Positions 24,811 through 57,910 of a stretch of 64,000 nucleotides of DNA are shown one piece after another (positions within the stretch are counted from its first letter, which is position 1; every line of letters starts with the position of its first letter). Both the position numbers and the translations under genes were made by a program. The DNA lies in assembly GCA_013298775.1 (NCBI GenBank), contig JAAFIV010000009.1, positions 1-64,000 of the forward strand, given 5' to 3'. The DNA comes from Ignavibacteria bacterium. Lineage in GTDB: Bacteria; Bacteroidota; Ignavibacteria; Kapaibacteriales; UBA4661. Under the pieces are notes generated by a model. That model saw only the letters and a list, made by a program, of their open reading frames with translations. It searched no databases and was not told the DNA's origin.

Positions 24811-25000
24811 TCGTCTAGCGGCTGAGGTGTTCATTAACGCTGCCGTCGGGCGAGTTTGATGTATGCAGTTTTCACCCATTTCCAATACTCCCTTCCTTTT
24901 TTATGTGATAAAGCTGTGGACATCATTATCTCAAACTGGGCAGACAAGAGTGTCTGCTTGTGCCGAAATCAGCATGTATGCGGTAGCGCGGGCGCTCTTG
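24811..25000. repeat. Gap with diverged family E and family A repeats
   Basis: In the 387 bp gap before the DedA gene, 24811-24855 contains CTAGCGGCTGAGGTGTTCAT followed by TAACGCTGCCGTCGGGCGAG, matching the family E pattern at 54510 and 57911. At 24938-24957 GGGCAGACAAGAGTGTCTGC and at about 24990 CGCTCTTGTTTGCC are family A half-sites. Short reading frames here overlap these repeats and are not believed. No RNA gene was recognised. Confidence 0.62.
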
Positions 25001-50441: not shown

Positions 50442-50530
50442 CTTCAGTGGCACAGACATTCTTGTCTGTGTTCTTCAACCGCAACCTGCGCCAATACTCA
50501 CAGACAGGAATGTCTGTGCCACTACTGAAG
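50442..50530. repeat. Intergenic repeat family A, copy inside the efflux operon
   Basis: CTTCAGTGGCACAGACATTC with TTGTCTGTG at 50442-50470 mirrors 50499-50530 (CACAGACAGGAATGTCTGTG, CCACTACTGAAG). It sits between adaptor and HEPN genes. It is the copy with the best match to the inner part of the element at 2986-3180. Confidence 0.85.
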
Positions 50531-54633: not shown

Positions 54634-54677
54634 GAAATCCGCTACACAGCATAAATGCTTGCGTAGCGGATTTTTTT
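54634..54677 (+). terminator. Rho-independent terminator of the efflux operon
   Basis: AAATCCGCTACACAGCAT, a short loop, then ATGCTTGCGTAGCGGATTT and a run of T. The stem has one or two mismatches and the T tract is strong. It lies between the RND pump and the cyanophycinase gene, so the latter has its own promoter. Confidence 0.92.
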
Positions 54678-54773: not shown

Positions 54774-55634
54774 ATGATTTTTGAAGGACTTCTTGAAAAA
54801 CTCACGCAACAACAACAACGAGCAACATCTTCCTCAGAACGAGGTTTTCTCGCGCTTATCGGGGGAAATGAAGATAAACGCGATGCAAAAAAAGTCTTAC
54901 GCACTGTCGCCACACTCCGCACCACGACGTGCGTTTCCGTGATTCCGACCGCAAGTATGTACGGACGTGAACTTGGCGAAGAATATGTTGATTTATTTCT
55001 CAAAATGAATGTTGGCATTACCAAAGGCTACGTGATTGATGCTCGCACCAAAGAAGATGTCATTGCAAAGCCAGAATACACCGCACATCTGGCTGAGTCC
55101 GACCTCATCTTTTTCACGGGAGGCGACCAAGTGCGCCTCGTCGAAGCATTCAAAAATACTGCCGCAATGAGCATGATTTACGACCGCTTCCTGCACGGTG
55201 CGACAATCGCCGGAACAAGTGCTGGTGCGGCTGCGGCAAGCAATCCGATGATTTACGACGGCGACGACGAAGCCTTTATGAAAGGCGCAGTGCAGCACAC
55301 CGAAGGATTTGGCTTTTTGAAAACAATTACGATGGATACGCATTTTCTCCAACGCAGTCGCATTCCGCGCATAGCGCAGTTTCTCGCACAACGCGGCTCG
55401 GAATACGCCATTGGCTTAGATGAAGACACAGGCATCATTGTCTCCCCGCATGATGATACGTGTACCGTCTTTGGCAGTGCGATGGTTACATTTATGCAAA
55501 ATAAAGGTATGAAATACACAGACTACGATGCCGTACGCAATGGCACACTGTACAGTGTTGATGGGCTTGGAATGAGTTTTTGTGCGGCAGGAACGAAATT
55601 CGACCTTGCAGCGTGGCAGGTTGTGGCTCCATAA
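54774..55634 (+). CDS. cphB: Cyanophycinase
   Basis: Serine-type exopeptidase that splits cyanophycin (multi-L-arginyl-poly-L-aspartate) into beta-Asp-Arg dipeptides; peptidase family S51. The 286 residues fit. The nucleophile is Ser149 in AGTSAGAAAAS. FLALIGGNEDK opens the flavodoxin-like fold and FFTGGDQVRLVE matches the family GG-x-Q segment. DTHFLQRSRIPRIAQFLAQR carries the conserved His and Arg positions, and GLDEDTGIIV follows. No signal peptide, so it is intracellular, as for granule mobilisation. The next gene is a CphA2-like synthetase, which supports a cyanophycin function. Confidence 0.93.
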   Translation: MIFEGLLEKLTQQQQRATSSSERGFLALIGGNEDKRDAKKVLRTVATLRTTTCVSVIPTASMYGRELGEEYVDLFLKMNVGITKGYVIDARTKEDVIAKPEYTAHLAESDLIFFTGGDQVRLVEAFKNTAAMSMIYDRFLHGATIAGTSAGAAAASNPMIYDGDDEAFMKGAVQHTEGFGFLKTITMDTHFLQRSRIPRIAQFLAQRGSEYAIGLDEDTGIIVSPHDDTCTVFGSAMVTFMQNKGMKYTDYDAVRNGTLYSVDGLGMSFCAAGTKFDLAAWQVVAP

Positions 55635-55667
55635 CGGAGTAGTAGCCCGTCAAATGTATTTGCAGAG

Positions 55668-55733
55668 GCACAGACAAGAGTGTCTGTGCTACTGAAGCCA
55701 GTATTTGCGGTAGGGCAGACACTCTTGTCTGCC
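55668..55733. repeat. Family A double half-site between cphB and the synthetase gene
   Basis: GCACAGACAAGAGTGTCTGTGC (a perfect 9+9 bp palindrome) at 55668-55689 and GGGCAGACACTCTTGTCTGCC at 55713-55733. The two small palindromes sit 23 bp apart, as in other family A copies. GTCAAATGTATTTGC just before them resembles the terminal repeat of the copy at 5831. Confidence 0.78.
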
Positions 55734-55779
55734 GATTGAACATAATTTTGCTCACAACCTTCATTATTTCCTTTATTGT

Positions 55780-57744
55780 ATGGAATTTCCCGACATGGAA
55801 GCCGCTTCGCAAGTGGACTTCAGCGTAAGCAAGTTTTATGCGTATGCGGGTCCGAATTATTACCTTGATACTGCCGCGCTGGTCTGCAATGTACATTGCC
55901 CACCGAGCGGGAACACGCTTGAATACTATACTCCCGATGTTGTTGCCGTGTTCCCGCATCTCGCTTCGCAAGCATTTGAGCGCGTGATAGACCTTTTTGC
56001 AGCAGTGGTGATGGAAACAATGCGCATGGATATTCACTTGCCACTCACACGCTTCTCAGTCAGCCCCGATGGCGATGACTACGTGCTTGCGGTGCAGTAT
56101 TGGGATGAATACATTGCCGAAGACGCTGTACGCCTTGTGTCTGAATGGTTTCAGGCAATGGATGACGGAAAAACATTGGGGAGAGATGCGTTTAATTTTT
56201 CTCAGCAATTTGTCGCCTTGCAAAAACGATTTGACCGCACCACCTACGGCGGTCCGACGATTTCCTCTATCTTGGAAGCCGCACAAAAGCTCAATATTCC
56301 GTTCTCTTGGTTGCGCATCGAAGGCGATTTCCAATTTGGCTACGGCAAAAATCAAGTGCGCGGTCGCTCGACCGTTTTTCATACCGACGGCATCAAAGAC
56401 ACGGAATTCACTACGCAGAAAGACCAAGTAAAGAACTTCTTGCTGGAATGCGGCTTCCCAACTCCGCAGGGACGGAATTGCTTCACCAAAGAAGATATTA
56501 CCGCCGAAGTGGAAGAACTCGGCTTCCCGCTTGTTGTGAAGCCGCTTGCCGGGCATAAAGGCGAAGGCGTAACCACCGACATCAAGACACTGGATGGCGC
56601 GATTGCGGCATATCAAGCAATCGTGGACTCTGCCGAAGAGCAAGGCGCGACCTTCGATGGTGCGCTCGTTGAGCAGCAAGTCTATGGTCTCGACCACCGT
56701 TTACTTGCTGTCAATGGTCGCTTTGCGGCAGCATTGTTGCGGGTTCCAGCGTATGTTGTGGGCGATGGCAGAAGTACCATCGAAGAGCTTATTGCCAAAG
56801 AAAATACGCGCCCTGAACGCAAGGATAATGCTCGCTCGCCACTAGCAAAAATTGAAGCCGATGACGGCTTGCTCGGCTACATCGCGCTGCAAGGCTTGAC
56901 GCTGAAATCGGTGCCGAAAGAGAACGAACACGTGAATTTGCGCCGCGTTGCGAACATTTCTGCTGGCGGCGTTTCGGTGAATGTGAGCAACAACATTCAT
57001 CCAGCAAATATTAAACTCGTGGAAGATATTGCGAAATTTTTCAAGGTAAACTGCATGGGAATTGATGTGTTGGCGCAAGACATCACCAAACCTTGGTCGG
57101 AAGGAAATTTTGCGATTATTGAAATCAACGCTGGACCAGGAATTTTTATGCACATTGCGCCCGCAGAAGGCGGCTCAATAGATGTCCCGACAATGATTCT
57201 GCGCTCGCATTTCCCTACGCCAGGCTCAGAGCGCGTTCCGATTATTGCTGGCAACGATGTGATTACGCCAGAATTCTGCACCGAACTCTACAAGCGTTTG
57301 TGCGCCATCAAGCCCGATATTGAGTTTGGCTCGCTGACCGAAGAAGGACTGTTTTTCAATGGAGAGTTTTTTTGCAACAATAAAAGCCACGAGAAAAACA
57401 TTCAACTGCTCTTACGCAATCCCAAGCTCGATTTCGCCTGTATTCGCCACACCAAAGACACCATTTTTGATTACGGCACTGTCCACGAAGGCGCAGATAT
57501 TGTTGTCTTGGAAGATGCTCATTATGCCGAAGTTATCTTGAAACGCGACACATTGCCCACGGGCGTAACAATCGAACTGCACAATGAGTATATCGCACTT
57601 CTCAGCACCAGCACCGAGCCGCGCCTCATCATGCTTCCGTCCGATGCACAGGCTTCCGCGCCACGCAATGCTGAAAAGCGCGAACAGGCTCTTTTGCAAG
57701 CAATAGAGCCACTTCTGGCGGGTTTACTTGCGAAAAATAGTTAA
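55780..57744 (+). CDS. Cyanophycin synthetase-like protein, CphA2-like, with degenerate Mur-ligase region
   Basis: A 654-residue protein against about 870-900 for CphA1. The N-terminal domain begins like the family (AYAGPNYYLDTAALVCNV). The ATP-grasp domain is well kept: Lys254 in VVKPLAGHKGEG, RVPAYVVGDGRSTIEELI, GGVSVNVSNNIHPANI, and metal residues Glu448 and Asn450 in IIEINAGPGIFMHIAP. Where CphA1 has the Mur-ligase P-loop G-T-N-G-K-T-T, this protein reads IIAGNDVITP (488-497). The Mur-like part LTEEGLFFNGEFF ... LLLRNPKLDFACIR is recognisable but shortened. CphA2 enzymes of cyanobacteria have the same loss and join beta-Asp-Arg dipeptides. Adjacent cphB would make such dipeptides. The product here is inferred. 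Confidence 0.85.
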   Translation: MEFPDMEAASQVDFSVSKFYAYAGPNYYLDTAALVCNVHCPPSGNTLEYYTPDVVAVFPHLASQAFERVIDLFAAVVMETMRMDIHLPLTRFSVSPDGDDYVLAVQYWDEYIAEDAVRLVSEWFQAMDDGKTLGRDAFNFSQQFVALQKRFDRTTYGGPTISSILEAAQKLNIPFSWLRIEGDFQFGYGKNQVRGRSTVFHTDGIKDTEFTTQKDQVKNFLLECGFPTPQGRNCFTKEDITAEVEELGFPLVVKPLAGHKGEGVTTDIKTLDGAIAAYQAIVDSAEEQGATFDGALVEQQVYGLDHRLLAVNGRFAAALLRVPAYVVGDGRSTIEELIAKENTRPERKDNARSPLAKIEADDGLLGYIALQGLTLKSVPKENEHVNLRRVANISAGGVSVNVSNNIHPANIKLVEDIAKFFKVNCMGIDVLAQDITKPWSEGNFAIIEINAGPGIFMHIAPAEGGSIDVPTMILRSHFPTPGSERVPIIAGNDVITPEFCTELYKRLCAIKPDIEFGSLTEEGLFFNGEFFCNNKSHEKNIQLLLRNPKLDFACIRHTKDTIFDYGTVHEGADIVVLEDAHYAEVILKRDTLPTGVTIELHNEYIALLSTSTEPRLIMLPSDAQASAPRNAEKREQALLQAIEPLLAGLLAKNS

Positions 57745-57776
57745 AAAAATGGTAACTGGTCAGGTATGTTGCAAAA

Positions 57777-57885
57777 ATATCCACGAATCACACGAATTGA
57801 CACGAATCAAGGACATAGTTTTTTGAAAAATAATTCGCTCAGACCTCCTGATTTGTGAGGATTCGTGCGATTCGTGGATGATTTT
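57777..57885. repeat. Intergenic repeat family F (CACGAATC type)
   Basis: TATCCACGAATCACACGAAT, then TGACACGAATCAAGGAC, mirrored by AGGATTCGTGCGATTCGTGG and ATGATTTTT, form an imperfect palindrome of about 105 bp. A partial copy is at 38059-38092 (ATTCGTGAAGATTTGTGC, AATTCGTGG). Sequences of this sort recur in many bacterial genomes as intergenic repeats. Confidence 0.75.
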
Positions 57886-57910
57886 TCAAGACCTAAGTAG
57901 TTACAGAAAA

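Follow-up and report, generated by a model that had tools for sequence, protein, structure and literature searches.

A cyanophycinase and CphA2 gene pair in an Ignavibacteria genome without CphA1

CphA2 has been described as cyanobacterial (PMC9262961, PMC10206079), and structures are available from Gloeothece citriformis (7ta5) and Stanieria sp. (8fxh/8fxi). In the cyanobacterial recycling system it works with CphB and with a CphA1 encoded in the same genome. In a 2016 Sideroxydans genome paper, a gene next to CphA1 is called CphA2; it may or may not belong to this family. Cyanophycin utilisation loci, as summarised in PMC10206079 citing Ben Hania et al., consist of a cyanophycinase with IadA or IaaA and, in that summary, no CphA1. 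In a further system, SuCphA1 whose G and M domains had been inactivated gave another CphA1 primer-independent synthesis in trans (PMC9262961).

The locus described here lies in a 64,000-nucleotide stretch of DNA (the window) from an Ignavibacteria bacterium, and pairs a cyanophycinase gene with a synthetase gene. The synthetase is like cyanobacterial CphA2 in its domain layout, ATP-grasp residues, GHKG loop, hydrophobic residue at the place of CphA1 Arg458 and nearby cphB, in having neither the Mur P-loop nor the N-domain hydrolase motif, and in its length (654 aa, against 629-642 aa). It differs in being about 40% identical to those proteins and in belonging to a separate sister branch; cphB, which is divergent in 20 of 27 cyanobacterial loci, is co-directional and upstream in the window, and the window genome, unlike the cyanobacterial setting, has no CphA1. 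With CphA1 (Synechocystis UTEX2470, 7lg5; Trichodesmium, 7wac) the synthetase shares homologous N and G domains and the ATP-grasp core, but it has neither the Mur active site nor Cx19HxxEH, and it scores half as high (228.4 bits against 7lg5, compared with 428.5 against 8fxh and 425.5 against 7ta5).

The cphB-cphA2 pair of the window

The two genes are co-directional and 145 bases apart (Table 1). They are probably a transcription unit of their own, with the transcript of the upstream RND pump ending at a terminator hairpin. The inverted repeat downstream of cphA2 may act as a terminator or be a repeat element. The gene order, upstream RND pump included, is common to the window and the genus-mate G005, which rules out a contaminant contig; a scan of viral contigs gave no match. 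The interspersed repeat CAGACAAGAGTGTCTG, copies of which lie between the two genes, matches the window 11 times, where chance would give 0.03 matches, and its copies often form inverted pairs (for example 24941-24956, 50453-50516 and 55671-55731).

Table 1. Coordinates of the features discussed, in window positions or on contig C32 of the same genome
Feature	Position	Strand	Description
Intrinsic-terminator hairpin, then T run	54637..54671	+	RNA fold -23.6 kcal/mol, z -6.7; ends RND-pump transcript
cphB	54774..55634	+	cyanophycinase, 286 aa; from TIGR02069, motifs and PDB matches
Inverted repeat between cphB and cphA2	55671..55731	.	copies of the interspersed repeat
cphA2	55780..57744	+	cyanophycin synthetase 2, 654 aa; from PDB scores, clade and predicted fold
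GHKG loop, residues 258-261	56551..56562	+	CphA2 counterpart of GNHG, the His267 loop of CphA1
EINAGPGIF, residues 448-456	57121..57147	+	ATP-grasp Glu448 and Asn450; Phe456 replaces CphA1 Arg458
GNDVITP, residues 491-497	57250..57270	+	stands where a Mur ligase has its P-loop (GTNGKTT); no nucleotide site
Inverted repeat downstream of cphA2	57769..57889	.	41-nt arms; fold z-score -7.7
IaaA	C32:4133-5290	-	apparent signal peptide
Second cyanophycinase	C32:7994-8971	-	193 bits; apparent signal peptide

The cphB product scores 166.7 bits against TIGR02069 (cut-off 126.6), matches 7uqv (E 8.7e-35) and 3en0 (E 1.2e-25) in the PDB, and has the nucleophile Ser149 (in GTSAGA), the catalytic His190 and Gln119, with no obvious signal peptide. 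A first-pass annotation of this DNA, made from the sequence alone, had called a complete cyanophycinase with Ser149, and the family score and GTSAGA motif bear this out. One position departs from Synechocystis CphB: Gln173, reported to be critical in that enzyme, is Thr189 in the window protein. Thr likewise stands at this place in CphE of Pseudomonas alcaligenes, an active cyanophycinase, where the Thr hydroxyl may serve an equivalent hydrogen bond (PMC3235067), so Thr189 does not disqualify the window CphB as a cyanophycinase.

For the synthetase, the best PDB E-values are near 1e-127, far past chance. The CphA1 model TIGR02068 (NCBIfam) gives it 318.5 bits against a cut-off of 850, and the match covers only model positions 105-570 of 862, in agreement with the shortened C-terminal domain reported in the first-pass annotation, whose coordinates, lengths, Lys254, Glu448, Asn450 and GNDVITP at 491-497 were all right on re-check. 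The Mur-ligase P-loop and lid are lost, and HxxEH, part of the N-domain hydrolase motif, occurs nowhere in the protein. The TeCphA1 study names Lys220, Lys261, His267, Arg309, Arg323, Asn394, Asp431, Glu450, Gly456, Arg458 and Glu215. The window residues K214, K254, R307, R321, N392, D429, E448, N450 and G454 match TeCphA1 residues and make a complete ATP-grasp site, and the counterpart of Glu215 is also Glu. Two of the G-domain catalytic residues depart, His267 (in the GHKG loop) and Arg458 (Phe456). GHKG is identical in all 65 aligned CphA2s, solved ones included, and the Arg458 place is hydrophobic (Phe, Tyr, Leu or Met) in all 65 as well; the eight aligned Bacteroidota CphA1s have Arg there, with GNHG, or in one case GNQG, in the loop. 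Since Arg458 touches the incoming aspartate in CphA1, its absence would fit an enzyme that accepts a dipeptide.

The AlphaFold2 (AF2) model of the synthetase has a pLDDT of 85.8, and its top structural match is 7ta5 (TM 0.83/0.92), with the CphA1s lower. In a tree built on 339 G-domain columns, all 65 CphA2 sequences form one clade with the window protein inside (UFBoot 100). The identification as CphA2 is firm; a decayed CphA1 is ruled out by clade, active-site letters and fold. The earlier reading had named a place outside the CphA2 clade, with ATP-grasp residues lost, as evidence that would count against it; the protein sits inside the clade and keeps the residues.

CphA2 outside cyanobacteria

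A CphA2 alignment was scanned against 84,980 species genomes and gave 204 relatives, of which the best 80 (79 loci) were kept. About 50 of these best 80 of 204 are non-cyanobacterial and 46-92% identical to the window CphA2, while the cyanobacterial CphA2s in the same set are 38-41% identical. The titles of the non-cyanobacterial MAGs, as deposited, include Kapaibacterium, Ignavibacteria, Bacteroidales, other Bacteroidota, Chlorobiota, Desulfobacterales, Negativicutes (a MAG that may be misbinned), Muiribacteriota, Holophagae and SAR324. The 92%-identical orthologue is in a Candidatus Kapaibacterium MAG that matches G005. Within the genus, cphA2 is present in six of the eight genomes examined, the window's own counted, and among the 41 genomes searched in all it occurs in no other genus. 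The cyanobacterial CphA2s form a clade of their own with the window outside (UFBoot 100), which rules out a recent transfer from cyanobacteria, and the 51 non-cyanobacterial sequences form the sister branch (UFBoot 88, or 100 without SAR324). CphA2 is not confined to cyanobacteria and is present in at least six other bacterial groups.

The non-cyanobacterial branch has its own conserved gene cluster. The cphB gene adjoins CphA2 in the window, four genus-mates and fourteen other loci, and it is directly upstream of cphA2 in the window, the four genus-mates and many unrelated MAGs. At 19 loci CphA2 is adjoined by iadA, often downstream; the IadA of locus L095 scores 475 bits against a cut-off of 331, and no IadA turned up in the members of the window's genus that were searched. 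Because IadA acts on beta-aspartyl dipeptides, the neighbourhood points to a substrate class and to no particular side chain. A PepT-like protein and YfcC were considered as further parts of the window's system and set aside: yfcC is at another locus of the window genome, with no pepT in the surrounding stretch, and two genus-mates without CphA2 (G001 and G004) also have yfcC, so that its tie to the operon is weak.

A CphA1-like partner in relatives

In four genus members (G002, G003, G006 and G007) the gene after cphA2 encodes a CphA1-type protein of about 700 aa. This kapabacterial partner has an N domain with Cx19HxxEH, but most of its ATP-grasp core is missing and its Mur P-loop is gone. 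A CphA1-type protein with PF18921 is encoded by 30 of the 38 non-cyanobacterial CphA2 genomes reached through their loci, and the N-domain zinc motif is intact in all 30, as well as in the four Kapabacteria. Twenty-nine of the 30 are degenerate or fragmentary, and one (Holophagae, L207) looks canonical. One (SAR324) is without a G domain and three are fragments; in all of the other 25, His267 is changed, Arg323 is replaced by Leu or Val, and Gly456 is replaced by Asp or Asn. Most of these 25 also have neither a Mur C-terminal domain nor the Asp-His pair needed for catalysis, while the P-loop is kept in several partners, so Mur activity may persist in some. TIGR02068 scores exceed the CphA1 cut-off in only 3 of 42 genomes, and one of these (G327) is of the altered type.

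Nine partner sequences split from eight Bacteroidota CphA1s at 100/100, and the counterparts of SuCphA1 H57, C59, S60, F67, R70, H79, E82, H83 and E87 are invariant in the nine. The N domain of the kapabacterial partner is 67-75% identical with a pN/pS of 0.23-0.28, against 40-55% and 0.42-0.56 for the middle part; with synonymous changes close to saturation, it is just the difference between the two parts that counts. The partner resembles a naturally occurring version of SuCphA1 whose G and M domains are dead, since its synthetase sites are altered or missing and its N-domain site is intact. Unlike that engineered protein (PMC9262961), the partners of the relatives are natural, mostly 510-760 aa long, and co-occur with CphA2. 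Partner-bearing loci are L060-L063, L131, L112, L095, L114 and L183-L212.

The partner is absent from, and has been lost in, the window species and its nearest relative G005, so the physiology of the window organism may differ from that of the relatives. An adjacent pepT-like gene was lost in the same two. These losses are what would be expected if the pair were left over from a lost pathway and did little today. This seems very improbable to us: the frames are open, the active sites are intact, the gene order is kept in both genomes, and the two cphA2 genes, whose products are 92% identical, have a pN/pS of 0.10.

Source of the dipeptide and nature of the polymer

A search for a full-length CphA1, which the first-pass annotation had asked for, was run genome-wide and answers its open question: there is none in the whole window genome, which is 99.2% complete. 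The CphA1 N domain is absent from this genome too, and the best other TIGR02068 match, a weaker one on contig C1, is MurE. Without CphA1 the locus is not the cyanobacterial CphA1-CphB-CphA2 recycling loop; the dipeptide is not made via CphA1, so either it has another source or the monomer is a different one.

One possible source is on C32 of the same genome, where the second cyanophycinase and an IaaA are about 2.7 kb apart, both with starts that look like signal peptides by eye. At C32 4133-8971 on the minus strand (L064), the cyanophycinase, a TPR/esterase-domain protein and the IaaA stand in a row. By its gene content this cluster is likely an external cyanophycin utilisation locus. It is like the loci summarised in PMC10206079 in having a cyanophycinase close to an IaaA, with apparent signal peptides on both; unlike those loci, as far as that summary describes them, it shares a genome with a predicted polymerising enzyme at a second locus. 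A secreted-looking cyanophycinase with IaaA would fit external cyanophycin use in which part of the dipeptide is stored.

The reading we favour, and hold to be somewhat better than even, is that the CphB-CphA2 pair hydrolyses and re-ligates beta-aspartyl dipeptides, probably scavenged ones, and that in most relatives the partner supplies primers. CphA2 would act as a one-site ATP-grasp ligase, activating the C-terminal carboxylate of the polymer chain as an acyl phosphate and then joining to it a beta-aspartyl dipeptide through the dipeptide's alpha-amino group; beta-Asp-Arg is the likeliest dipeptide and beta-Asp-Lys a possible one. CphB would free the dipeptides again. The likeliest source would be scavenging, helped by the apparently secreted cyanophycinase near the signal-peptide IaaA, and imported dipeptide would be stored by CphA2 for later release. 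In most relatives, a CphA1-type partner with an intact N-domain hydrolase site would supply polymer ends, or primers, to CphA2. The activity of the window CphA2, the amino acid carried, the import of the dipeptide and the supply of primers are what we infer from sequence, and some points speak against the scheme: a secreted IaaA would destroy the dipeptide before uptake, the genus members searched have no IadA, and the Thr at the Gln173 place of CphB may point to another polymer. Of the reading in the first-pass annotation, the CphA2 outside cyanobacteria stands, backed by tree, active-site letters, fold and neighbours; the polymer storage or recycling that it proposed is still a prediction.

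The cyanophycinases of the branch suggest that its polymer could be chemically different. The CphBs adjoining non-cyanobacterial CphA2 form a single branch (support 100/100) and read DTHF in 18 of 18, whereas all cyanobacterial CphBs compared, 3en0, 7uqv and the genus's own secreted cyanophycinases read DQHF. CphA2 might then join other beta-aspartyl dipeptides, with Lys or Orn as the second residue or in the mixed isoaspartyl forms that protein turnover yields, and the dedicated CphB would be adapted to the product. A canonical CphA1 to provide beta-Asp-Arg is found in almost none of these genomes, and IadA and IaaA tolerate different amino acids in the beta-linked position (PMC10206079), so their presence leaves the side chain unfixed. 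The Thr in active CphE, with its perhaps equivalent hydroxyl (PMC3235067), tempers Thr by itself as proof of a new polymer, and the substrate-contact letters of CphA2 are near-identical between the window branch and cyanobacteria. We consider a different polymer unlikely.

The missing CphA1 and the second, secreted-looking cyanophycinase would also be expected if the pair mainly remodelled or trimmed imported cyanophycin fragments, with CphA2 extending only short oligomers and no granule being formed. The window CphA2 is built like a polymerase, purifying selection on it is strong, and re-joining spends ATP, which would be pointless without storage, so that we find this use of the pair improbable.

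Beyond storage of scavenged dipeptide in the window organism, a broader and tentative proposal, to which we give rather less than even chances, is that the branch is an ancient, separate, non-cyanobacterial storage system based on CphA2 only, with its own DTHF CphB and IadA and with CphA1 reduced to a free-standing N-domain endo-cyanophycinase that supplies primers in trans. Such a system would be fed scavenged or chemically different dipeptides, and the window lineage would be an end point that has dropped the partner.

The wider CphA2 branch and its altered CphA1 partner are the main interest of the locus. With a second deep branch in several groups, the origin of dipeptide re-polymerisation looks different, and so, as most branch genomes are without a working CphA1, does its purpose. 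The partner, with its hydrolase site kept and its synthetase sites altered, offers a natural test of the primer hypothesis, and a CphA1-independent polymerase might find use in producing defined polymers of dipeptides.

Other CphA-like proteins were seen alongside this branch. Some Bacteroidota CphA2-like proteins have an N-terminal extension of 42-50 aa and no cphB or iadA neighbour (L088, L091, L096, L097, L098, L100, L104, L106, L124, L127, L128 and L130), and in several MAGs the two forms occur together. Genomes of group f28 g75 (for example L172-L179) encode up to four CphA-like proteins each, mostly of about 600-670 aa, with the ATP-grasp residues present and different substrate-loop letters.
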